In this document: one piece after another, positions 4,531-29,903 of the stretch
Layout of the letters: each line of letters opens with the position of its first letter
Position numbering within the stretch: position 1 is the stretch's first letter
DNA from: Bacillota bacterium
GTDB lineage: Bacteria > Bacillota > Sulfobacillia > JABLXB01
Length of the DNA stretch: 34,781 bases
Assembly (NCBI GenBank): GCA_018434225.1
Contig: JAHDPS010000015.1
Span: forward strand, 1 to 34,781
Reading direction: 5' to 3'
Notes under the pieces: model-generated
Told to the model about the DNA's origin: nothing
Seen by the model: the letters and a program-made list of their open reading frames with translations, nothing else
Databases searched by the model: none
Translations under genes and position numbers: made by a program

Positions 4531-5886
4531 GTGACTCAGGTGAGTCAGGCGACTCAGGTAGCTCGGTCGAAGAGTAGCAGGGAAGCCGCTTTCGACGAAG
4601 ATGTCTACGAACCCATTCCCGAGGAACGGAAGGTGCACTGGGCGTCCATAATGATGGCTTTCGTGGGTGACTGGGTGTCATTGTATTCGGTGGCGATAGG
4701 CTACGATATCGGAACGAAACTGTCGTGTCTGCCGGCTGTGTGGTCGTGCGTTCTCGGATATGCGATCGCGGGGGTCATCGCGGCTATAATGGGCGCTGTC
4801 GGAGTGAAGAAGGGACTGGCGAGCTATGTGCTTGCGAAGGGACCTCTGGCATGGTACGGCCAGACCCTGCTGGCCCTGGTGATGTTCACCGTCATCGGCT
4901 TCGGCTCCATCGGGCTCCAGGCGGACGCCGTTGGGCGGTCAGTGTGCGTATTGTACCCGGGTTTGGGGTCCTCCAGGGCTCTCGTGTCCGGGATCATGTG
5001 CGCGATAATGATGATTACCGCCATCAAGGGGATCAAGTGGATGGCCAATCTCAGCTGGGTTGCCATGCCGTTCTACTTCGTGATATCGGTCATCGCTACA
5101 ATAATAGCCGTGAACTCATTTGGAGGATTGCAGGCCGCCCTCGCGGTTGAGAAGACGGGTATGAGTTTCTCCAGGGCGGTCTTTCTTAATGCGGGGGCCT
5201 GGGGTGGGTTCGTGATGTTGATCACCGATATCACCAGGTTCCTGAGGACTAAAGCCGAGGTCTACACCATAGTTCCCATCGCTTTCGTGTTGGGTTCGAT
5301 CCCCCCGATATGTGGAGTGCTCCTGGGAGCCACGATCGGGGTGCCGTTGGAGGCCCTGTTCCCACAATTGGGCATAGGGTTGCTCGGCCTGATCTCGATC
5401 ATAGGGATAGGCTGGACCACCAATGATAGCAACGCATATACGGCCGGCCTTGCTCTTGCTACGGCGGCATATCCGTGGAAGAGGATGGGCCGGACTATGG
5501 CGACGACGATAGTCGCCGTTCTCGGGGTCATCGGAGCGATGACCGGCATAGGCCAGTTGAAGTTCTTCGAATGGATAGCGGGTTTCCACGGTTCGTACAA
5601 CATGAGTTTTGTTGGTGTTATGCTGGCCCACTACCTTATCTTGTCCAGGGGTAGGGAGATTCAGACCAACGGTCTGGCCGGCATAGTATCGTGGCTCACA
5701 GTGGGATCGCTGTGCCATTTCAATGTGCTTCCCATCCCGGTGGTCACAGGGATCGTGCTGTCTTTCGCACTGTATCCCGTTCTCTACCTCGGCGTCGAGA
5801 AACCCATGTTCGGAGAGAAGGTCGTCAGCAGGATTACCCCGGAAACATTCTGGGCAAAGGCTCCACCATCCGCGTCTCAATTCTAG
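4531..5886 (+). CDS. NCS1 family nucleobase/hydantoin permease
   Basis: A 451-residue integral membrane protein of the NCS1 (nucleobase:cation symporter-1, CodB/Mhp1-like) family with about 12 hydrophobic segments from residue 35 to 430. Family marks include the N-terminal VGDWVSLYSVAIGYDIG segment, GVKKGLASYVLAKGPLAWYG, WGGFVMLITDITRF and the WTTNDSNAYTAGLALA helix with the substrate-site Asn. NCS1 proteins take up cytosine, allantoin, hydantoins or purines with Na+ or H+. GTG 4531 follows a GGGAGGGG site. The first codons are a 9-base repeat (4534-4560) giving TQV-SQA-TQV. Its partner racemase suggests a hydantoin-like substrate; this is inference from context. Confidence 0.87.
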   Translation: MTQVSQATQVARSKSSREAAFDEDVYEPIPEERKVHWASIMMAFVGDWVSLYSVAIGYDIGTKLSCLPAVWSCVLGYAIAGVIAAIMGAVGVKKGLASYVLAKGPLAWYGQTLLALVMFTVIGFGSIGLQADAVGRSVCVLYPGLGSSRALVSGIMCAIMMITAIKGIKWMANLSWVAMPFYFVISVIATIIAVNSFGGLQAALAVEKTGMSFSRAVFLNAGAWGGFVMLITDITRFLRTKAEVYTIVPIAFVLGSIPPICGVLLGATIGVPLEALFPQLGIGLLGLISIIGIGWTTNDSNAYTAGLALATAAYPWKRMGRTMATTIVAVLGVIGAMTGIGQLKFFEWIAGFHGSYNMSFVGVMLAHYLILSRGREIQTNGLAGIVSWLTVGSLCHFNVLPIPVVTGIVLSFALYPVLYLGVEKPMFGEKVVSRITPETFWAKAPPSASQF

Positions 5887-6121: not shown

Positions 6122-7825
6122 TTAGGACGATTTGCGACCTGCAAGCTGAGAGGGCTCTCCTAGATTTCTGTATCTTCTGCTGGTACGGCGTGTCCTCAAG
6201 AAATCGCACGCACTTCTGAGGTCAAGTAGTGCCTGTCTCGGCAGTCCCATCTTTTTCGAGAGCCACTCTTCGTCAACCATCTGGGTAGCGACGCGAATCC
6301 CTGATGTTCTTACAACTGAGTCAACCTCCGACACAAATCGCGGTTCAACGTTAACCAATCCTGGCAGCGGGATGCGCAGCCGATCAGCCTCACTGGGCTC
6401 TACCTTGAGTACCCCGCCCCCATAGCTCCTGGCGTTCAATTCCGCACTGAACTGGAACAGTGTAGTCAGAGATCCAAGGGCCAGGCGGGGTGGATCGAAC
6501 ACCTCGTTGCCATCCCTAGGGACCAGCTGATGTATAGCGTTAGTTGAGATGACCCGCGCAGAGTTGATGATGACACGTGGTGCATACCCGGACATGTAGG
6601 TAAGGAAGGCGTCCGGTGGATCAGAAATGCTCACCAAGTACCATGGCTTGCGATTGGCACATTTGTATCGCGTATGTAGGTGATTGTCTGTTCCTTCCTG
6701 AATGAATCTCTGCGCTTCAGAGGACAACTCACCTTCTTTCGGAAGACAGACAAGAAAGCACGGTTTGTCTGCAGTCATCAGGTCGTCCAGATCGCGTCTA
6801 GAAAACTCAATTCCTGCGAAGGAGGAGGAGCTGGTGACGATCATCTTGGTAAGCCGTGCGAGAGATTCACGGCTCCGGAAATACGACGGTCTGCGGATGA
6901 AGAATTTATTACACCCAGTGACAATGCCGATGCGCGTCTTTGCCAGGCTACCAAGGGAGACGACATCGGGATTTCGAAGTAATGAATCGTAAAGCCTTAG
7001 TATCTCCTGTCCCACGAGTGAAGCGAGAATGGCAGGACTTCCATCCTCCTTGGTTAGGACTGGGACAGCACCGATACTGTTTAGATCTCCTATGTTTCGT
7101 ATGCTGTCTAGTCGAGCGACCTGTAATACTCTGTTCTTGTTGCCCCATCCTCTCGCAAGAAGGAGTATAGCCTCCTCCTCTGCATCCCTGAAGATCCGTT
7201 CACCAATCAACACGACCCGAACCTCTTCGAAGTCTGCAAATACTCTCTCTCGTACTGGTCGTGCGTATTCGGCATGAAGAAAAGCACCAGGAAGTACCAT
7301 ACCTAAGCATCCGCTTTTCCTGAGCAGAGTCAGACTGTGCAGAACGAAATAGGCCCAGTAGCTCGCGGTGTTAGACACAGAGAATCCCTCTGACTGGATT
7401 CGATTTTGAGCCTTTTGTCTGAGGTCTTCACGAAGAACGTGGCTTCTCACGTAGGGGGGGTTCCCGACAACCGCCGAGAACCCCCCCTGAGGGGCCACCG
7501 TTAGGGAGAAATCGAAGAAATCACTCGTATGGAAGTGATGCCTCGGCGCTCCAGAGCTAATGAAAGGGGTCAAGTGAGTGACTGCATCGGGGTCGATATC
7601 TGTCCCATGCACGCGCGTTAAATAGTCCCCAAAGCCAAGGTTCCTCAGTGTCTTGAATGCCGACTCCACGAAAACGCATCCACCAAAACTTGGATCCAAG
7701 ACCTGAGGGTCATTACCGTCTACGGCCCATGTTACTATAGCCTCGGCAACAGGTTTCGGCGTAGCATACTGTCCCAAAATCAACTTGTTGCCGTTACTAG
7801 TGGTCACGACCACTTCACGTTCCAC
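6122..7825 (-). CDS. N6-adenine-specific DNA methyltransferase (gamma/Eco57I-PaeR7I-like)
   Basis: A 567-residue DNA methyltransferase. Motif order is that of gamma-class adenine enzymes: GQYATP (motif X, residues 18-23), DPSFGGCVF (motif I, SAM binding, from 44), an acidic D76 in GTDIDPD (motif II), and NPPYVRS (catalytic motif IV, from 122). IGIVTGCNKFFIRRP opens the C-terminal target-recognition half, which also carries YGGGVLKVEPSEADRLRIPLP. It should methylate adenine in a specific duplex site using SAM. No nuclease domain is seen in it. GTG 7825 overlaps the upstream gene by 22 bases. It is the last gene of a four-gene overlapping operon. Its stop lies only about 14 bases from the broken end of the group II intron, so the block's left edge is here. 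Confidence 0.88.
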   Translation of the reverse strand: MEREVVVTTSNGNKLILGQYATPKPVAEAIVTWAVDGNDPQVLDPSFGGCVFVESAFKTLRNLGFGDYLTRVHGTDIDPDAVTHLTPFISSGAPRHHFHTSDFFDFSLTVAPQGGFSAVVGNPPYVRSHVLREDLRQKAQNRIQSEGFSVSNTASYWAYFVLHSLTLLRKSGCLGMVLPGAFLHAEYARPVRERVFADFEEVRVVLIGERIFRDAEEEAILLLARGWGNKNRVLQVARLDSIRNIGDLNSIGAVPVLTKEDGSPAILASLVGQEILRLYDSLLRNPDVVSLGSLAKTRIGIVTGCNKFFIRRPSYFRSRESLARLTKMIVTSSSSFAGIEFSRRDLDDLMTADKPCFLVCLPKEGELSSEAQRFIQEGTDNHLHTRYKCANRKPWYLVSISDPPDAFLTYMSGYAPRVIINSARVISTNAIHQLVPRDGNEVFDPPRLALGSLTTLFQFSAELNARSYGGGVLKVEPSEADRLRIPLPGLVNVEPRFVSEVDSVVRTSGIRVATQMVDEEWLSKKMGLPRQALLDLRSACDFLRTRRTSRRYRNLGEPSQLAGRKSS

Positions 7826-8571
7826 AGGCCTCCCAATAGGCTCTGACCGGAATTCCTAAGAAGGGTCAGGCAATTGGAGTAATATGGGGTCAGGAAGTAG
7901 TCCTGGTTGTGGCGTATCATACCAAACCAATGCGGATCCCGAAGGACGTCCCTATCATGTTCATCAAGGAAATTGGCTGCAACTAGTTCAACCGCTAGAA
8001 CGAGATCCAGTGGTGGGAAGGGTATTCGCGGGACCGAAATACCCTCATGCAGCCAACACAGTTCATCTTTGCGTGGTTTGCCGCCAGCCTGGAGGTGATA
8101 GTGAGGTCCTTGCTGGTTAGTGGCTGCAAGGTCGAAATGATAGCGGAGCATAACTCGACGGTTAGGGCCAGCCGGTCTCTCAGCGAGCGCCTTCCTAACA
8201 CCCTCGGAATCCAAATGCTCGCGGTATGTGACTCTAGGTTCCAGGGACCACACTCGAAGTCCCACATTCTGACGAGAGGGGCAACTATCAACACTCGTCC
8301 ATTTCACAGTACAGTAGAGATCTGGTTGAAGCTTGCACTGACCGACTACAGTCGGTTTGAAGGCAAGGGGTTTGTCGGGGTGAATGGAATAGCCCCATTC
8401 AAGACCACTTGGAGGTTCTCTCCGGCCTCTCATCCGTGCTCGGAATGTGGCGTATGAGTCTAACGCACAAGCCTCCACTTCTTCAAGTACGTCCAAAGAG
8501 GACGGTTCCAGGAAGCGGCGGAACTTTTTCAAGATGACTCTTACGGAACGAGCGACGTCTTCACCGTTCAA
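7804..8571 (-). CDS. Uncharacterised protein in the kinase-methyltransferase operon
   Basis: A 255-residue soluble protein of no recognised family. An N-terminal helical part with acidic residues (residues 1-45) is followed by a central beta-rich region (CKLQPDLYCTVKWTS, then VMLRYHFDLA). Next comes HYHLQAGGKPRKDELCWLHEG and a helix with VPRIPFPPLDLVLAVELVAANF. The C-terminal part is rich in aromatic residues (HWFGMIRHNQDYFLTPYY). Clustered His/Asp residues in RYHFDLA and HYHLQ could form a metal or active site, but no known nuclease motif is clear. It overlaps its neighbours by 11 and 22 bases, so it belongs functionally with them. It is the most likely unknown effector or adaptor of the operon; this is inference. 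Confidence 0.6.
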   Translation of the reverse strand: MNGEDVARSVRVILKKFRRFLEPSSLDVLEEVEACALDSYATFRARMRGRREPPSGLEWGYSIHPDKPLAFKPTVVGQCKLQPDLYCTVKWTSVDSCPSRQNVGLRVWSLEPRVTYREHLDSEGVRKALAERPAGPNRRVMLRYHFDLAATNQQGPHYHLQAGGKPRKDELCWLHEGISVPRIPFPPLDLVLAVELVAANFLDEHDRDVLRDPHWFGMIRHNQDYFLTPYYSNCLTLLRNSGQSLLGGLWNVKWS

Positions 8572-9643
8572 GGGGGGATTCTCCTCCTCTAATCCTGCAG
8601 ACCATTGGCATTACGTCGGCGTCAAAGAGCTCGTCCATCACCTCATTGGATTCCCGGATGGCCTTGAAGGAGACTCTGGGCTCATCCATCACAGCTGGAC
8701 GGGTGTCCGGACGATAGGACAACGAATAACGGTACAAGACCGGCTGGTTAAGTACATAGCAGACGGTGTCGGCGGGGCTGTTGCCGCTGCTAACGCACTT
8801 CGAAGCACTGACATCAAGTGCACATCGAGACCGAAGAGTGTCCGCCAGTGCAGGTCTGACAGAATCCTGAACACCGTTTTCCAGAAGGAACTGCTTAGCT
8901 GCAGAAAGAAGGCGCCTCTTCCACCACCTTGGGGAGAGATCAGAAAAACATCCAGTGTAGATTGTTTCGCGGAACAGCTCTTGGACTTCTGGCGTGACGA
9001 ACGAAGCAATATCAAGGCCCACATAGGTAGCGGCGTGGACCTCGTCGTACAACACCCCAGGGTACCGCAGCAGGACGTTCTGGAGCCAACGCGCCAGGAC
9101 AGGCACCTGCCACTGACCATCACGAAGGGGCGGCCCTGCCTGTCTCACAAGATCCTCCTCCACTGGATTAGCTGTTCCGAGCAACCTCCGAAGGGACGGC
9201 CAGTCCTTTCCCTGGGTACCGCGAAGTCTCTTGAAGGCCGTGGAAATCGAGGTTAGGATACGGGCAGCAAGTGTTGGGTCATCGTCCTTGAACAACACCC
9301 AATCGAATACCTCCAGGGCCTCTAGTAGGTATCGGTTGGTTTTCCAGGACTCCAGTGATCGTCGGGTCAGGAGTACGATGGGGTGCTCAGGGAACACTTC
9401 TCGAATCCTTGCGGCAAGGGTACCCCCAAAGTAGTCAGCGTGCCTGCCCTGCTTATCGACTTGAGTAAGGTCGTAGTCAACTAGGAAGAGATCGGAAGTA
9501 GTCTGCACGAAAGGACGAAGGTCCATCTGCAATGGAGGAGGCGAACACTCGATTTCTAGTGAGCCTGCTTCCTGCAACTGGGCGGCGTAAGTACGAAGGA
9601 GTTCAGGCTCTGCATCATCAATGTATAGGACCCTACTTGTCAC
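8561..9643 (-). CDS. Receiver-domain (response-regulator-like) protein with unknown C-terminal region
   Basis: The N-terminal 125 residues form a CheY-like receiver: acidic pair Asp9-Asp10 (YIDDAEPE), phospho-acceptor Asp56 in LFLVDYDL, switch Thr93 in VLLTRRS and Lys119 in VLFKDD. All residues needed for phosphorylation are present. The remaining 235 residues match no DNA-binding output domain: no helix-turn-helix, HD or GGDEF is seen. This part has several Trp-rich helices (LARWLQNVLLRYPG, RWWKRRLLSAAKQFLLENG) and a Cys-containing stretch. It overlaps the kinase gene upstream by 11 bases and the unknown gene downstream by 11, making it the natural phospho-partner of the kinase. The output is inferred to act on proteins or DNA modification rather than transcription. 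Confidence 0.75.
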   Translation of the reverse strand: MTSRVLYIDDAEPELLRTYAAQLQEAGSLEIECSPPPLQMDLRPFVQTTSDLFLVDYDLTQVDKQGRHADYFGGTLAARIREVFPEHPIVLLTRRSLESWKTNRYLLEALEVFDWVLFKDDDPTLAARILTSISTAFKRLRGTQGKDWPSLRRLLGTANPVEEDLVRQAGPPLRDGQWQVPVLARWLQNVLLRYPGVLYDEVHAATYVGLDIASFVTPEVQELFRETIYTGCFSDLSPRWWKRRLLSAAKQFLLENGVQDSVRPALADTLRSRCALDVSASKCVSSGNSPADTVCYVLNQPVLYRYSLSYRPDTRPAVMDEPRVSFKAIRESNEVMDELFDADVMPMVCRIRGGESPLER

Positions 9644-11846
9644 CTTGGCAAGCCTCCATTCCCTTCGGCAATCGTATCTCGATGCAAGTCCTCCATCGAG
9701 AATCGGTATCGATAAACTGGACTGTTCCCCCGTTTTCGTCGATGATGTCCTTGACTATGGTTAGGCCCAAACCCGTCCCGATGCCAAGTACTGGGTCAGG
9801 CCGGCTAGTCGTATAGAACGGTTCAAACACCCGGTTCCTCTCTGAAACCGCGAGTCCCACGCCTGTGTCCCTAATCCACAAGCGGAATGAATTAGATTGC
9901 TGTTCGGCACCCACCTCGATAGCGCGTATAGGCTGGCCTCTAACGGCTTTGAGTGCATTGGTCAACAAGTTTATCAAGATCGAGTAGACTTCACCTTCGA
10001 ACATAGGTGGGGTCCGCGCATGAGATGGAACAGAATTGCTCAATTCGATGCCATTTGTCCTACAGTAATGGTCGAAGGCCGATAGTAGTCTGTCAACAAA
10101 GGGGCGCAACACCCATTGTCTACGCCTCTGACGAGCGTCCGGGCCGAGCAGGACTCCGATAAGGCTACCCTGAGCCTCCATGACCTGTACCCACGATTCG
10201 AGCCGCGACTGGACGCTCCCGATTTCTGTGGGAGTGCTTCCGCTCTTCAGTCGTTCCATGCTTCTTGCCGATTCTCTGAATCCATCGATGATGCCGCGTA
10301 TCTGATGGACAAACACGACCACCATAGTTCCTACTGAAGCCAGTACCCGGAGCATGTTTATCTTGCTCATTTGTTCCTCGGTGCTTGACTCCACAAATGA
10401 TTGCACTTCGTTAAGTACCTGATTGATGGTTTCGGTCGCTCTTGGAGAAGGGCATTCCTCCAGGGCTTTACGTACTTCAGTGACCGCCCGGTTCACAAAT
10501 GCCACGGGACTCTCTCTATCCATGTAATTTGCAGGCTCTTGGCCAGATTTCACTCGGCTTTCTAATCGATGCCGCTCCACCGTCATCCAGTCGATACCTA
10601 GGCGGACGAACTGCCGCAGCTGCTCCAGGGAAGCGTTTTCCAGCAGCCCTTCCCTATTCAGAGTTGGGATGATGCCTGGATGCTTATGCTTCGAAATGTG
10701 GACTCCACCGAATAGCTGGTTGTTGCCAGGTATGTTTAGCATCGGACGGCCACCGTTACCATTGGGCAGCAGATTCTTCAGCAAGGGAGGTACAAAAGTG
10801 ATTCTTCGTGCCCGGTCTCTGTCCAACGATAACCAGTCGAAGCTAGGTTCCCCGTACGGGAAGACTCGGAACCCGTCCTGATATATCGCTACCCCTCCAA
10901 ACCGTCTCCCCACTCTCTGCGCACTCCGAGTGTCTATTCCTGTATCGTCGGTGCCTTTGTACAAGTGGTAATAGACGTACAATCGTGCACCTGCCAGATC
11001 AGGGAAGACGGTTTCTGGGGGGCTGAAGGAAATCGGCTCTGACTGTGTGCGGACTCTTAGACTATAGGAGGGTCTTCCGTCGGGAGCGACGTCAGCGGTG
11101 AGCTGTCCCCAAGCAGCGCTCAGGAATTGTTCGGTAACCTCACCCTCAAACCTGGGGAAGTCGGGGGCGATTAGCAGAACCCTGAAGCCGGGGTCGGAGG
11201 CGGGTATCCCTTCGGTTTGTCGCAGAGCCAAAGGATAGGGAGGCTGGAGGTCCAACAACTCGTTTCGTACGTTGTTGAAATCGTCCACTGTCCAGGCGTC
11301 GCGGACTCTCGAGAGCGTGAGTCTGACTCCAGTCGGAAGGAGTTTATCGTAATTGCGCACTGACAACTCACATGATACTTCCGCAAGATCTTGTCCTGGC
11401 TTGAATTGATTCCAATCGAAGTGCACGTCCGTTTCCTGCCAGATTGTCTCGCTAACCTTGGCAACGCTGTGAACCCACAACTCTTCTGCGAGGCGACGAA
11501 CCGCAAACCGGCCCACTCCTTTTTCCCCAGTACGCGGCCGGTTGTGGATGGGGGACACAGGATTCTTGACTTTGTAGTCTGACGCAATCCTCATCCAGCT
11601 TCCCTTGAGAACCTCGAGAGACATACCTGAACCATTGTCCTCAATGGTAATTATCCCATTAGGCTCGTTAACCCGGTCGAAGGTCACTATCACTTCGGTG
11701 GCGTCTGCGTCGTAGGCATTCTTGATTAGCTCGCTCAATGCGACTGACCTCTTGGCAACTAGTCTTTCTCCAAGCTCAAGTAGTAACGCTGAATCGACAG
11801 TGAACCCAACCTTCTCCGAGACCGTTTTCTCTTCATCCGAGGCCAC
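9633..11846 (-). CDS. Tandem GHKL ATPase / sensor histidine kinase
   Basis: A protein of about 737 residues with two GHKL ATPase domains. The N-terminal one is MutL/Hsp90/MORC-like (HATPase_c_3): ELIKNAYDADA (Glu39, Asn43), IEDNGSGM (Asp70), and GEKGVGRFAVRRLAE. A middle segment contains IYQDGFRVFPYGEPSFDW and LNREGLLENASLEQLRQF, typical of such proteins. The C-terminal part is a histidine kinase: dimerisation helix with His514 (FVHQIRG), N-box LINLLTNALKA, DTGVGL, FEPFYTTSR and GIGTGLGLTIV. No membrane segment is seen, so it is cytosolic. GTG 11846 is chosen because AAGGAG lies 8 bases upstream; GTG 11855 is the longer alternative. First gene of the operon with receiver, unknown and methyltransferase genes. 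Confidence 0.85.
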   Translation of the reverse strand: MASDEEKTVSEKVGFTVDSALLLELGERLVAKRSVALSELIKNAYDADATEVIVTFDRVNEPNGIITIEDNGSGMSLEVLKGSWMRIASDYKVKNPVSPIHNRPRTGEKGVGRFAVRRLAEELWVHSVAKVSETIWQETDVHFDWNQFKPGQDLAEVSCELSVRNYDKLLPTGVRLTLSRVRDAWTVDDFNNVRNELLDLQPPYPLALRQTEGIPASDPGFRVLLIAPDFPRFEGEVTEQFLSAAWGQLTADVAPDGRPSYSLRVRTQSEPISFSPPETVFPDLAGARLYVYYHLYKGTDDTGIDTRSAQRVGRRFGGVAIYQDGFRVFPYGEPSFDWLSLDRDRARRITFVPPLLKNLLPNGNGGRPMLNIPGNNQLFGGVHISKHKHPGIIPTLNREGLLENASLEQLRQFVRLGIDWMTVERHRLESRVKSGQEPANYMDRESPVAFVNRAVTEVRKALEECPSPRATETINQVLNEVQSFVESSTEEQMSKINMLRVLASVGTMVVVFVHQIRGIIDGFRESARSMERLKSGSTPTEIGSVQSRLESWVQVMEAQGSLIGVLLGPDARQRRRQWVLRPFVDRLLSAFDHYCRTNGIELSNSVPSHARTPPMFEGEVYSILINLLTNALKAVRGQPIRAIEVGAEQQSNSFRLWIRDTGVGLAVSERNRVFEPFYTTSRPDPVLGIGTGLGLTIVKDIIDENGGTVQFIDTDSRWRTCIEIRLPKGMEACQGDK

Positions 11847-12168
11847 TACCCTCACTCCTTGGGCATTATCAGTATTCGAGTTCTACGGCACCCAACACAT
11901 TCCTCCGGAAGAGGCAAATCAGGACCTTGGAGACAGCCAATGGCACTGACATCCTTATTCCGAAGTCACCGCACCTGGCGTGACTAGGGCCAGGAGCGGA
12001 TGGTCTCGACCGCGTTCTTTCTGGGCCTATGCTGAGAATAGGAGGTAGTGGAATCAGAGACGTCCATGCGTCAGCAAAGGTAGATTGCCCTTCGGTCTTT
12101 GGTCAAAGGGAATTAGGTGCCTCTGCCGTATCATCCAAGTAGGCTTCACTCTCGTCAGAGGTGGTGCC
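11847..12168. other. Intergenic region between divergent defence-type genes
   Basis: About 320 bases separate the minus-strand kinase operon from the plus-strand methyltransferase-HNH gene. No gene, RNA or mobile-element end is recognised. Promoters for both directions should be here. A minus-strand ACCCAA/ATTATC pair (11890-11895, 11865-11870) is promoter-like but has a 19-base spacer and would leave almost no leader, so it is not called. Confidence 0.3.
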
Positions 12169-13851
12169 ATGGACGACCGAACCCTATACGTCTACCAAAC
12201 CAACGCCGAGGCATTCGGCAAACAGTACCGCTCCGTCGAACCGGTGGAGCTGCATGGCCTCATTACGGCCTTCTTCCACCGGGGGGAGCCGACGGTCGAC
12301 ATCGGTGCCGGCAGCGGCCGCGACGTCGCCTGGCTGAACGCGAACGGCTTTCCCGCCGTCGGTTACGACGCGCTCCCGAAAATGGTCGCCGAAGCGCGGG
12401 CTTAGTATCCCGGCATCGATGTCCGCCAGGACAGCCTGCCCGCTCTCAAGGCCATACCGGACGGGACGTACTCCAACGTGCTCTGCTCTGCCACCATCAT
12501 GCATCTTGCCAGGCAGGATCTCATCGCGGGGGCATTCAACCTCGCGCGGATACTGAAACCGGGCGGACGGCTGATCGTGACGTACAGGCCGGGCGAGGGC
12601 GGTAACGAGCGCGAGGCGGATGGCCGGCTCTATACCGGCATTCCGCCGGGGAAGCTCGTTCTGCTCCTCGAATCCACGGGGCTGAAGGGCCTTGCCGTCC
12701 TCAAGCAGGCGGATGCCTGGAGACCCAACGTAACCTGGCACGTCATCGTGTGTGAGAAGGGCACTGAATCGGCGGCACACGGGCTGAACCGCATACAGAG
12801 CGTCCTGGTCCAGGACCGGAAGGTGGCCACCTACAAGTTCGCCCTGATTCGGGCTCTCTGCGACGTGAGTCGTTACGAGCCCCACGTGGTCAGGTGGGGT
12901 CAAGACGAGGTATACGTTCCGCTCGCCTCTCTGGCCATGAGGTGGCTCATCTACTACTGGCCCGTTGTCAACGCTCCGGACTTCATCTCGCAAATGCACG
13001 GCGAGAAGCCGGGCGGCAAGAACCTCATCTCTTTCCGGCGGACGATACAGGGCTTGGCCGGTTCCTTCGGACTTGACGGACTCTACGCGCTGCTCAACCA
13101 CATAGACGAGGAACCCGGCACCTACCGGCCAAACCTGAAAGTGATTGCCGACGCCATTCGAAAAGGGCCGGTTTCCTTCGCCGGAACGAAGGGACCACGC
13201 CTGTTCGGCTTCTCGCCCAGACATGCGCCTCCGTGCAGTGAGGGCGACTCGGAAGGCCCGCATGACCCCTTCGGATGGGTGGTAGTCCCGCAGCCCATCT
13301 GGATGGACATCTGCCGCTTCGATCACTGGATCGAGGACAGCATCGTCGTCAGGTGGGCCCAGTTAACCGTCGAAATGAACCCCGACATGACCATGAGCGA
13401 GATACTGCCCCTGCTGCTTGAAAGCCCTGGAGCCGGGCGTGGCACCGATGAGGTCCGGGAAATCCTTGAGGAGACGCACGTGGGTCTTGAGTGCGTCTGG
13501 AGCGGACGAGCCCTGAAGGACGACTACAACGTCGACCACGTCATCCCGTATTCTGTCTGGGGTAACAGCGATTTGTGGAACATGCTTCCCTGTCTGCCTC
13601 GCTTGAACAATGAGAAGTGTGACTGCCTGCCGACGCAGAGGCTTCTCGATCAACGTGAAGACGCCATCGACTACTACTGGCGACTCTACCGCTCGCGATT
13701 GCCCAAACGGTTCGAGACTCAGATACGCCGCGCCTTGGGTTCCTCCGCATCGTCCGCAGCCTGGGAGAAGATAGCAATGTCGGGTCTCAAGGAGACGGTG
13801 GAAAAGCTCGCATCAACGCGGGGCCTGGCCCGCTGGGAACCGCACCCCTAG
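12169..13851 (+). pseudogene. SAM methyltransferase-HNH nuclease fusion broken by an in-frame TAG
   Basis: The frame encodes a class I SAM methyltransferase (VDIGAGSGRDVAW motif I; YDALPKMVAEARA; then LCSATIMHLARQDL and ILKPGGRLIVTYRPG). It runs into a long middle region and a C-terminal HNH domain: CVWSGRALKDDYNVDHVIPY, then LWNMLPCLPRLNNEKCD. A TAG at 12403-12405 follows residue 78, and the same frame continues without shift to 13851, so this is one nonsense codon in an otherwise intact gene of about 560 residues. ATG 12169 has AGAGGTGG just upstream. The methyltransferase is of the small-substrate type rather than a DNA adenine type. Restart at GTG 12478 would lose motif I but keep the HNH part. 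HNH-methyltransferase fusions of this kind occur in defence contexts. Confidence 0.75.
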
Positions 13852-14051: not shown

Positions 14052-15122
14052 GTGAAGAATGTCAAGTTGCGCTTGCGTGCATACCGCGAACTGGCCGGAA
14101 TGACTCAACAGACCCTGGGCGAAAGGCTTGGTGTAACTAGACAGACAATCGCGGCATGGGAGAAAGGCCATTCCACACCTACCTTGGCCCAGATCTTCCG
14201 ATTGACGGAGGTCCTGGGAGTCCAAGCAGAGTTGCTGCTGAACGGTTCCCAGACCCCAGAGCCGGCTTTCCTGTTCCGGGCTGACAAACCCGAGGCCTTG
14301 TCGCCAGAGATGCGAGCGCTTCTTGCGCGGAAGGCGACGGATTATGCCGCAGTCGAACGGATAATGGGTTTGGCGCCACTGCTCCCTGAATCTCGCCCCC
14401 AGGACTCATATGTACCTGACGTAGTTGAGGCCGCCGCTGTAGAAACCCGCAGGTGGCTTGGCACAGAAGCCGGCCCACTGTGCTACGCCTTGTCCTTGCT
14501 AGAGGAGAAGGGTCTCAAGGTTATACTCCACCGGATGCCGCAGGAGGTGTCGGGCTTCTCGGCATTCGGTGAGGAATTGGGTGGAGTCCTGTTTGTCAAC
14601 GCGGGTCACCCGGTGGAACGCCGGTCCTTCACCGCGCTTCACGAAATGGCTCATCTGGTTTTCCACCGCCGGGAGTACCAGCACCCCGTCAGGAAGAAGA
14701 GGGGCGATCCCAAGGAAAAGGCAGCGAACCACTTTGCCGGCGCAGTCCTGCTACCACGGGAAGTCCTTGAGAGAGAACTCAGACCACTCCGTAGATCCTC
14801 GATTCCAGAATTGCTGCTTCAGGACATGAAGTGGCGCTACCACGTCAGCATGCGCACGATCCTGCTTAGGGCCGAACAGATTGGGCTGCTCCCGAGAGGG
14901 CAGGCAGGAAAGCAGATCGGTTATCTGAAGAAGAAGTATGGGACTGACTATGAACCACCAGATCTGCCCGAGCCCAAGGGATTGACTCGCCTCAAGCGGT
15001 TGGTTTTCGAAGCACTGGCGGGTGAAAAGATTACTGTGTCCAGGGCATCCGAAATCCTCGGGTCGCCGTTGGCCGAGGTCCAGGCGACCTTAACACAATG
15101 GACCGAGGGTGAACAACCATGA
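14052..15122 (+). CDS. Xre family regulator with ImmA/IrrE metallopeptidase domain
   Basis: A 356-residue two-domain protein. Residues 4-63 are an Xre/Cro helix-turn-helix (LGERLGVTRQTIAAWEKG). Residues 125-300 form an ImmA/IrrE (COG2856) zincin domain with HEMAH at 197-201 and a following region that keeps NHFAGAVLLP, the third-ligand helix. Family members cleave or control repressors; Xre-COG2856 fusions act as antitoxin-like regulators. The C-terminal 60 residues look like another small helical domain (RASEILGSPLAEVQATL). The GTG start has AGAGAGGAGG 11-12 bases upstream, a rather long gap. Its stop overlaps the start of the PIN-like gene in ATGA, so they form a coupled pair. The 14005-14024 palindrome is the expected operator. 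Confidence 0.87.
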   Translation: MKNVKLRLRAYRELAGMTQQTLGERLGVTRQTIAAWEKGHSTPTLAQIFRLTEVLGVQAELLLNGSQTPEPAFLFRADKPEALSPEMRALLARKATDYAAVERIMGLAPLLPESRPQDSYVPDVVEAAAVETRRWLGTEAGPLCYALSLLEEKGLKVILHRMPQEVSGFSAFGEELGGVLFVNAGHPVERRSFTALHEMAHLVFHRREYQHPVRKKRGDPKEKAANHFAGAVLLPREVLERELRPLRRSSIPELLLQDMKWRYHVSMRTILLRAEQIGLLPRGQAGKQIGYLKKKYGTDYEPPDLPEPKGLTRLKRLVFEALAGEKITVSRASEILGSPLAEVQATLTQWTEGEQP

Positions 15123-15604
15123 TCATGTTGGCCGACGCGATGGTGCTCATCGACCTTGAGTACGTCGGCGGAATGAGCCTCCTGCCGCAGATAGGCGCTA
15201 CGGAGGTGATTGATTTGGTGCTCGCGGAGTGTATTCACCCCAGCCAACCGCTCCTGGAATCCCACGTGCGATCTGCTGGCATCTCAGTCATCCGATCACA
15301 GACCGAATGGTTGTTCGATGCCCTTGCGCTGAAGACCGATGCTCTGAGTGCTCAGGATAGCCTAAACCTGTTCTATGCCAGGACATTTGGGCGCATTCTC
15401 CTTACCAACGAGAAGGCCCTGCGGCAGATGTGCGAAAGCCATTGCGTCCGCACCCATGGGACTCTGTGGCTCATCGAACAGGCATTCACTAGAAACCTTC
15501 TACCAGCAGCAGTACTGTGCCGATGGCTGAGGGCACTCCCCGAATTCGGGCGCCGCCTCCCTCAGACAGAGACTCATCGATTGTCCCGCTTATTGGGTTG
15601 CTGA
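15119..15604 (+). CDS. PIN-like domain protein, probable toxin partner
   Basis: A 161-residue protein with features of a PIN-type ribonuclease fold: an early acidic residue in MLADAMVLIDLEY, an acidic position in ALSAQDSLNLFYAR, and RILLTNEKALRQMCE, which corresponds to the LTxDxxLR segment of PIN domains (here Asn-Glu instead of the usual Asp-Asp). PIN toxins cleave RNA with a Mg2+ site of three or four acidic residues. It overlaps the Xre-ImmA/IrrE gene by 4 bases and would be the toxin of that pair. The C-terminal 40 residues are an extra helical part. The PIN call rests on fold-level pattern, so other divergent nuclease families are possible. Confidence 0.68.
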   Translation: MIMLADAMVLIDLEYVGGMSLLPQIGATEVIDLVLAECIHPSQPLLESHVRSAGISVIRSQTEWLFDALALKTDALSAQDSLNLFYARTFGRILLTNEKALRQMCESHCVRTHGTLWLIEQAFTRNLLPAAVLCRWLRALPEFGRRLPQTETHRLSRLLGC

Positions 15605-27957: not shown

Positions 27958-28034
27958 CTATAGCATGTTCTGTGCTGGCGTCAAGTATGAGCCCGCACCA
28001 CATTGGAGAAACCCTAAGTCTGGGGGAAAACGGC

Positions 28035-29903
28035 GTGATCTTGGTAACGGGAGGGAACGGCTTCCTCGGGCGGCCCTTTTGCGAGAGACTCTTCGAGGAA
28101 GGGGCGGAGGTCCTGAGCCTCGACATCTCCGCAGGGCGAGAAACAAGGTACCCCAGCATTGCTGGGGACATTTCCGATCGCGAGGGACTTGGAGCGATCT
28201 TCCGCCGCTACCCGATACACACGGTTGTCAATTTGGCCGCCATCCTGGCGACGGACTCTATGAGGGACCCGACGACCAGTTTCAGGGTCAATGTAGTGGG
28301 ATCGTTCAATCTCCTCTATTTCTGTCGAGGGAAGGGCGTCTCGCGATTCGTGTTCGCGAGTTCCTACAATGCACTGGGCGATCTCCCGGAGCGGAAGGAC
28401 CCAGTGGACGAGACGGCGCCCTGCCAGCCCACTGACTTCTACGGAGCGTCCAAGCTGTTCGTCGAGCAGATGGGGATCATGTTCTCCCACCAGTACGGAT
28501 TCGAGTTCGCCGCCGCTAGGATGCCAATGGTCGTGGGTCCCGGGAAACCCAGCACGACCTCCGCATGGAGAGCCGAGATGTTCAACCGCGTTCGATCGGG
28601 AGGCAACCTGTTGATCGAATTCGCCCCGGGGGAAGTGCTGCCCCTGGCCCACTACCAGGACGTCGTGGAAGCCCTCGTGAGGCTCACCTTGAGCGAACGC
28701 TTGAACCACGCGGTATATCACCTTCCCTACGAGGCGTGGCGAGTCGAGGACCTCGGGCGAACGTTGCGGGAAGTTGGGCACGATCTCAGGGTAACGTATG
28801 GGGAACGGCGATTCCACGGCGGTCCGGCGTCCGTCTCATGGGAACGGATACGCGAGGAGTTCAACACGGAAACGCCCTCATTGCGCGGAAGGCTGCTGGA
28901 GGCGGCCGATGCGAGCGAGGAAGGCAGCGGTGGTGACCGAACCCTACGCCGGGACCAGGCCGTAAATCGAGGCCAGGTCGTATATCGGGACCAGGTTGTC
29001 AATAAGGAGGAGATGTGCGGCATGAAGGCGAGTATCGTGGGAGTGATCCCGCCCGTCATAACGGCGTTCGATGCCCGGGGCGAGTTCGATGAAAAGGCCC
29101 AGAGAGAGATCATCAGTTTCCTTGCGCCAAAGGTGAATGGGTTTTATCCCGTTGGTACTTATGGGTCCGGCCCGCTTATGAGCCTGGCGGAGCGCAAGAG
29201 AGTGGCGGAGGTCGTCGTCGACGAGGTCAATAAGCGCGTGCCGGTCATCGTGCACGTGGGGGCGGCGTCCACCGCTGAGACAGTGGAGCTGGCCAGGCAC
29301 GCCGAATCGATCGGCGCCGACGCCGTGGGCGCGATCCCCCCTTACTATTACCGCTATACAGAGGACGACTTGTTGGGACACTTCAGGGCCATTCTCGAGG
29401 CCGTCCACATTCCGGTGTTCGCATACAATAATCCAGGGCTTTCGAACAACCCTTTGACCCCCGGGCTACTGTCGAAACTTGCTGCGGAGGGCCTCGCCGG
29501 CCTGAAGGACAGCTCGTTCGATCTGACGCAGTTCTACGAGTTCCTGAACGGCATCCAGCACCCGGGCTTCGCCTTCATCGTCGGCACGGAGGCAATCGCC
29601 GCGGCGGCGGTCCACGCGGGGGCGCAAGGGATCATCTCGGGATTGGCGAACGTCTGGCCCGAGATCATGGGAGAGTTCTGGCGGGAACTGAAATCGAACG
29701 ATGGAAGAAAGGCCGGAACACTGCAGCTGCGAGTGTTGAAAGCCCGTTCGATCCTCAAGTACGCGTCCACACTCGTGGTGTGTTACGAGGTCCTGAAAAT
29801 GCGGGGGGTGAACGCGGGTTTCCCGAGGAAGCCGTATTCCCCGGTGGATGAAGGAACCAGGAAGAGAATCAGGGAAGCGTTCGCGAATATGGGGCTGTTG
29901 TGA
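28035..29903 (+). CDS. Single frame joining an NAD-dependent epimerase/dehydratase (SDR) and a DHDPS-family lyase
   Basis: One uninterrupted frame covers two enzymes. Residues 1-300 are an extended SDR: Rossmann VILVTGGNGFLG, catalytic Tyr/Lys in YGASKLF, and a conserved RMPMVVGPG segment. Residues from about 330 on are a DHDPS/NanA-type lyase. The two are joined by three 18-base repeats (28950-29003) coding RDQAVN-RGQVVY-RDQVVN, then AAGGAGG and an internal start. GTG 28035 has GGGGGAAAA about 8 bases upstream; a GTG at 27972 would extend it without family similarity. It could be made as a fusion or as two proteins by internal initiation. Both functions fit the sugar-acid locus. Confidence 0.75.
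   Translation: MILVTGGNGFLGRPFCERLFEEGAEVLSLDISAGRETRYPSIAGDISDREGLGAIFRRYPIHTVVNLAAILATDSMRDPTTSFRVNVVGSFNLLYFCRGKGVSRFVFASSYNALGDLPERKDPVDETAPCQPTDFYGASKLFVEQMGIMFSHQYGFEFAAARMPMVVGPGKPSTTSAWRAEMFNRVRSGGNLLIEFAPGEVLPLAHYQDVVEALVRLTLSERLNHAVYHLPYEAWRVEDLGRTLREVGHDLRVTYGERRFHGGPASVSWERIREEFNTETPSLRGRLLEAADASEEGSGGDRTLRRDQAVNRGQVVYRDQVVNKEEMCGMKASIVGVIPPVITAFDARGEFDEKAQREIISFLAPKVNGFYPVGTYGSGPLMSLAERKRVAEVVVDEVNKRVPVIVHVGAASTAETVELARHAESIGADAVGAIPPYYYRYTEDDLLGHFRAILEAVHIPVFAYNNPGLSNNPLTPGLLSKLAAEGLAGLKDSSFDLTQFYEFLNGIQHPGFAFIVGTEAIAAAAVHAGAQGIISGLANVWPEIMGEFWRELKSNDGRKAGTLQLRVLKARSILKYASTLVVCYEVLKMRGVNAGFPRKPYSPVDEGTRKRIREAFANMGLL
28950..29003 (+). repeat. Three 18-bp tandem repeats joining two enzyme frames
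   Basis: Units 28950-28967, 28968-28985 and 28986-29003 are all variants of CGGGACCAGGTCGTAAAT. Because 18 is a multiple of three they stay in frame and encode three similar hexapeptides. The array ends just before an AAGGAGG ribosome binding site (29004-29010). Confidence 0.85.
29022..29903 (+). CDS. Internal start: DHDPS/NanA-family lyase read as a separate protein
   Basis: From ATG 29022 the protein has 293 residues, the normal length of a dihydrodipicolinate synthase-family lyase. It has SIVGVIPPVITAFD, PVGTYGSGPLMSLAERKRV, the catalytic Tyr135 in FAYNNPG and the Schiff-base Lys162 in GLKDSS. AAGGAGG at 29004-29010 is a strong ribosome binding site, about 11 bases upstream; a second ATG at 29013 is too close to it. 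Family members cleave or dehydrate 2-keto-3-deoxy sugar acids, N-acetylneuraminate and similar compounds. Downstream lie an SMP-30 lactonase and an ascorbate-type PTS. It is listed separately because its own start signal is good, although the upstream SDR frame never stops. Confidence 0.65.
   Translation: MKASIVGVIPPVITAFDARGEFDEKAQREIISFLAPKVNGFYPVGTYGSGPLMSLAERKRVAEVVVDEVNKRVPVIVHVGAASTAETVELARHAESIGADAVGAIPPYYYRYTEDDLLGHFRAILEAVHIPVFAYNNPGLSNNPLTPGLLSKLAAEGLAGLKDSSFDLTQFYEFLNGIQHPGFAFIVGTEAIAAAAVHAGAQGIISGLANVWPEIMGEFWRELKSNDGRKAGTLQLRVLKARSILKYASTLVVCYEVLKMRGVNAGFPRKPYSPVDEGTRKRIREAFANMGLL

Follow-up and report, generated by a model that had tools for sequence, protein, structure and literature searches.

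A methyltransferase-HNH gene interrupted by a single amber codon in a Bacillota draft genome, and its candidate defence family

The locus and its broken reading frame

The window, that is, the whole stretch of 34,781 nucleotides that we analysed, corresponds to contig C328 in a draft genome of 2.83 Mb from a Bacillota bacterium (381 contigs, 97% complete, 6.3% contamination). On its forward strand, the frame 12169-13851 runs from an ATG at 12169 to its own terminator, the TAG at 13849, and translation reveals one internal stop in its 561 codons, the TAG at 12403-12405 (codon 79). In 560 random codons at the base composition of the window we would expect about 16 stops, and the probability of finding at most one is about 1e-6; the frame is therefore protein-coding. 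The gene occurs as a single copy in this genome. An antisense frame of 380 residues at 12184-13326 was considered and dismissed as the shadow of this gene. The features of the locus are as follows.

6122..11855, minus strand: upstream four-gene operon, restriction-modification-like, coding for a GHKL-ATPase protein (9633-11855, minus strand), two proteins without a clear family and an Eco57I-type DNA methyltransferase (6122-7825, minus strand)
12157..12171, plus strand: Shine-Dalgarno sequence GAGGTG, spacing of 5 nt, and start codon ATG 12169; the start is the same in the orthologue L002
12169..12768, plus strand: N-terminal class I SAM-dependent methyltransferase domain (residues 1-200), with the stop inside it; from Pfam, the AlphaFold2 model and Foldseek
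12295..12324, plus strand: SAM-binding motif I, VDIGAGSGRD (residues 43-52); G46, G48, G50, R51 and D52 are invariant in 74 sequences
12403..12405, plus strand: premature TAG as codon 79; in the model it falls where the helix that follows beta-strand 2 ends, and its column is hypervariable
12478..12480, plus strand: GTG put forward as a restart, residue 104, inside the methyltransferase domain, without a Shine-Dalgarno sequence
12781..13488, plus strand: central region, mostly helical (residues 205-440), also found in stand-alone HNH proteins of cyanobacteria, Deinococcus and Hymenobacter
13516..13632, plus strand: HNH_4 nuclease motif, VDHVIPYSVWGNSDLWNMLPCLPRLNNEK; D456 and N471 are invariant, H457, N480 and K483 nearly so
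13849..13851, plus strand: own terminator, likewise TAG
14052..15604, plus strand: downstream overlapping pair of an XRE-ImmA/IrrE protein (RmrA-like, PADLOC E 9e-35) and a 161-residue protein

The window copy retains both motifs in intact form, SAM motif I as DIGAGSGRD and the HNH motif as VDHVIP...LWN...NNEK. An intact orthologue, L002, from a genome that belongs to a different genus of the same family, is co-linear with it over 560 residues and shares 83% amino-acid identity in a 456-residue match. The translation, the conserved motifs and the co-linear orthologue thus bear out the original prediction of a lone in-frame amber codon in an otherwise intact gene. As written, the window copy yields only a fragment of 78 residues. 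Note that the word "broken" concerns the sequence as written; the organism itself may lack this stop.

Three further observations were made in the window. The upstream operon (6122-11855, minus strand) encodes a protein of 740 residues with two separate GHKL-type ATPase domains, the N-terminal part of which is BbrUII/HgiDII-like. The downstream pair (14052-15604, plus strand) is of the toxin-antitoxin type, and its 161-residue member looks PIN-like, by eye only. Finally, at 27972-29903 (plus strand) an NAD-dependent epimerase domain and a DHDPS-family domain share a single frame.

Domains of the fused protein and its relatives

The protein begins with a class I SAM methyltransferase domain of the small-substrate type, continues with a central region of helices and ends in an HNH nuclease. 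In the window copy, Pfam detects fragments of Methyltransf_11/25/23 on either side of the stop; in the intact L002 the same families match whole and above the Pfam cut-off. The C-terminal part scores 24.2 bits with HNH_4 (PF13395), for which the cut-off is 22. Among 74 aligned proteins, neither the GxGxGRD motif nor the HNH residues D456 and N471 vary, and H457, N480 and K483 hardly do. Judged by profiles and catalytic residues, the protein is thus both a class I SAM-dependent methyltransferase (Methyltransf_11/25 type), interrupted inside this domain in the window copy, and a member of the HNH nucleases (PF13395 HNH_4).

The AlphaFold2 model is confident (pLDDT 91). Using the full model, the top Foldseek match is RPA2492 of Rhodopseudomonas palustris (PDB 3e23), a SAM-bound methyltransferase with a TM of 0.85 over the target which, unlike the fusion, has a single domain, at 23% identity. 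The fold matches of the C-terminal part are weak and mainly to Cas9 HNH domains; here the active site is of the same HNH_4 type and the profile match is significant (E 3.5e-5), whereas the overall fold match is weak and the fusion has no guide-RNA machinery. The stand-alone HNH_4 proteins of cyanobacteria, Deinococcus and Hymenobacter share the central helical region and the HNH motif over about 340 residues, but at about 385 residues they are without the methyltransferase domain. A second domain fused to HNH is also known from VcaM4I, an EVE-HNH modification-dependent endonuclease with a restriction role (PMC7897488). Its reader is a PUA-type binder of modified bases and not a methyltransferase, and the comparison with our fusion is one of domain layout.

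A methyltransferase and a nuclease in a single chain, together with a conserved SAM site, could suggest a compact restriction-modification enzyme, in which the methyltransferase would mark self DNA and the HNH domain would cut unmarked DNA. However, the position of motif IV is occupied by ATIMH or SAVWMH, and we were not able to find any amino-methyltransferase (NPPY-like) or C5 (PC) motif there in the aligned sequences. Structure and profile searches give their best matches with methyltransferases that act on small molecules, proteins and tRNA, and the Pfam assignment is Methyltransf_11/25 and not a DNA methylase; no DNA-methylase family of Pfam matches L002, which does not place it with type II/IIG restriction-modification enzymes. 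Since the motifs of DNA methyltransferases are absent, this reading is less likely than that of a gated defence nuclease (see below), and we regard it as improbable.

A query of genome contigs with the single protein returned no relatives; the family was retrieved by an alignment query. This alignment-based scan covered 84,980 species genomes and yielded at least 496 candidate relatives, and almost all of the 80 that we kept have methyltransferase and HNH in one open frame; contrary to what had been supposed, the combination is not uncommon. The fused family is present in Pseudomonadota, Chloroflexota, Acidobacteriota, Cyanobacteriota, Nitrospirota, Bacillota and other phyla, and the window gene belongs to a smaller subfamily together with L002, L063-L066, L069 and L110. 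Copies on plasmids are annotated merely as "class I SAM-dependent methyltransferase" or "methyltransferase domain-containing protein".

We found no named or characterised system that corresponds to the fusion, and no paper on the family in the literature that we searched, from which subscription journals were mostly missing. In PADLOC-DB 2.0.0 no system-specific model covers the fused protein; the matches are generic, namely mad2 for the methyltransferase part and Cas9, PtuB and PDC-M01B for the HNH parts. We also considered PD-lambda-5, which is labelled "methyltransferase" in its paper with HNH unmentioned, and rejected it; no PADLOC model of that name matched. We would class the family as an uncharacterised variant among the domain-HNH nucleases, represented here by a broken copy.

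Age and nature of the premature stop

In a codon comparison of the window copy with L002, dN/dS is 0.127 overall, 0.10 before the stop and 0.13 after it, at a dS of about 0.86, which is near saturation. We then looked at 130 columns that are invariant in six more distant relatives: both copies deviate at 16 of them, the window copy alone at two and L002 alone at one. There is no second stop or frameshift, though 144 codons are one substitution away from a stop. Since neutral drift after the split would have given many more departures, the break is either very recent or absent from the organism. As a rough estimate, the time without selection would make up no more than about 5% of the branch of this gene (95% Poisson upper bound, two events). 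The part upstream of the stop, which includes SAM motif I, is conserved equally well, and because of this the comparison indicates that selection acted on the fused protein up to the very recent past.

We hold it almost certain that the break is either a mutation of very recent date or an assembly or consensus error in one base, and not a new mode of decoding. Recent inactivation and sequencing error had been proposed side by side, and as a pair they stand, as both fit the present data. If the stop had arisen in assembly or consensus calling, or came from a minority allele, in this metagenome-assembled genome, the gene of the organism would be intact and functional. That the remainder of the gene looks fully constrained speaks for this, as does the state of the draft, with its many contigs and its contamination. 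On the other hand, single-base errors are rare in well-covered contigs, none of the 94 ABC-transporter domain matches of the same genome contains an internal stop, and related copies within the class are degraded too. We therefore consider such an error unlikely, if far from negligible.

Among these degraded copies, L063 (genome G028, same class) is without the N/K end of the HNH motif, and genome G046, also of this class, has only a frame-broken remnant (L004). In another phylum, Belnapia arida carries a second, frame-broken copy (L132:14241-16097) near an intact one. Loss of the gene appears to be common, and in this it may resemble the loss of defence genes in general.

At the position of 12403-12405 the relatives have sense codons, with 13 residue types among 73 of them. 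A Gln codon (CAG), as named in the original prediction, is not backed by these relatives: Gln occurs in three of the 73, and the closest relative, L002, has Ser.

Could the UAG be decoded as an amino acid, by a suppressor tRNA or by recoding, to give the full protein? Some room for this is left by the tRNA set, which is incomplete, as several expected isoacceptors are missing among the 40 tRNA genes found. However, none of these 40 has a CUA anticodon; ARAGORN read 39 of the anticodons, and the remaining one, of a low-scoring tRNA that it missed (C327:5506-5578), is TCC by eye. There are two release-factor genes, RF2 on contig C379 and, on C344, a fragment adjoining a PrmC-like gene, which we read as RF1, so that both factors are present. 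Furthermore, TAG terminates the methyltransferase-HNH gene itself and other genes of the window (e.g. the permease gene 4531-5886 and the GHKL gene 9633-11855), the 94 ABC domains are free of internal stops, and the codon-79 column is hypervariable. Recoding is thus very unlikely, to the point that we give it next to no weight.

It had also been suggested that the stop is tolerated, with a restart at GTG 12478 producing an HNH protein without a working methyltransferase domain. Stand-alone HNH relatives exist, the two parts are encoded separately in the pairs L150 and L163, and the HNH part is still conserved in the window copy. On the other hand, this start would fall within the methyltransferase domain, and we could not find a Shine-Dalgarno sequence at GTG 12478 or at any nearby in-frame ATG or GTG that would retain the whole HNH part. 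A weak AGGA precedes GTG 12823, a start which would lose the conserved K218. The equal conservation of the part upstream of the stop likewise speaks against a restart, and we find it highly improbable.

Genomic context and candidate function

We read the defence neighbours of the relatives case by case. The fused gene L063 follows a DruE-like gene and the fused L065 lies near DrmA/DrmB; copies on plasmids lie near McrBC and Qat genes, and one stand-alone HNH relative is found near type III CRISPR genes on a plasmid. The window gene itself is flanked by the restriction-modification-like operon on one side and the RmrA-like pair on the other. On the other hand, many copies of subfamily B are located among ordinary genes, which counts against a role in defence, and among the fused loci there is no recurring neighbour or constant operon partner. 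A component of Druantia or DISARM was considered and rejected, as the DruE-like gene occurs only beside L063 and DrmA/B only near L065.

The two parts are also found as separate genes. In L150 they are overlapping ORFs, and the alignment of the HNH protein covers most of the fused profile. In L163:3-4727 (MT836554.1, human gut) a DUF3427 helicase, a NUDIX hydrolase, a solo methyltransferase and an HNH_4 protein stand in a row, which is possibly a multi-gene defence cluster; its HNH protein is different from that of the fused family. Small ORFs upstream of stand-alone HNH genes might have been a conserved partner, but their sequences are unrelated and we dropped this idea.

Solo class I methyltransferases of the same family occur in lambdoid prophages (e.g. 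phi458) and in Bacillota; unlike the fusion, they are encoded by a separate gene paired with a gene for a membrane protein, a helicase/PLD protein or an HNH protein. In the lambdoid prophages the methyltransferase gene comes after one for a membrane-protein-like product of about 195 residues, and the pair lies between the integrase and recombination genes. The two genes overlap by 4 nt in Escherichia phage phi458 (L165:2336-3519) and in E. coli FORC_041 (L166:6073-7250). Matches to the pair are present in 43 of 5,426 complete E. coli genomes, in 29 of them over most of its length. The prophage clade forms a single well-supported group (100/100) nested within the tree of fused methyltransferases; a Vibrio phage methyltransferase sits on a very long branch and has no annotated HNH neighbour. 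Of the ten loci that we read in Bacillota, about six have the solo relative overlapping or next to helicase/PLD genes (ResIII helicase or PLD-nuclease genes in L168, L169, L170, L171, L175 and L176). The phylum-wide search was dominated by generic methyltransferases, and its hit count is not a family count.

These arrangements raise the possibility that the methyltransferase is a shared control module of undescribed anti-phage systems with interchangeable effectors, which would be the fused HNH, a separate HNH gene, the membrane protein of the lambdoid prophages or the helicase/PLD proteins, and that the window copy was freshly lost. We put this forward as a speculative extension that is rather unlikely to hold as a whole.

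Our preferred reading is that the gene encodes an accessory methyltransferase-HNH protein of 560 residues and is freshly broken here, and that the intact members are most likely candidates for defence against mobile DNA; we consider this probable, with some reservation. The HNH domain would cut nucleic acid, and the SAM-dependent domain would gate it, through methylation or sensing of a small ligand or a nucleic-acid substrate. The sequences show the domains, the conservation of both active-site motifs, the wide spread, the recency of the break and the defence-type neighbours in several genomes, whereas nuclease activity, gating and defence are inferred. Taken on its own, the defence role of the intact members is plausible at slightly less than even chances, and gating specifically by methylation or ligand sensing is a tentative proposal.

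The amber codon itself reflects either gene loss of an ordinary kind or an error of assembly, and it shows that an isolated in-frame stop, when met in a draft genome, calls for caution before it is read as recoding. The family itself is widespread and strongly conserved, goes in the databases only by the name of methyltransferase, and is linked to nuclease or membrane partners by several gene arrangements. If it is a defence family, SAM-dependent enzymes would gain a gating role in bacterial immunity.
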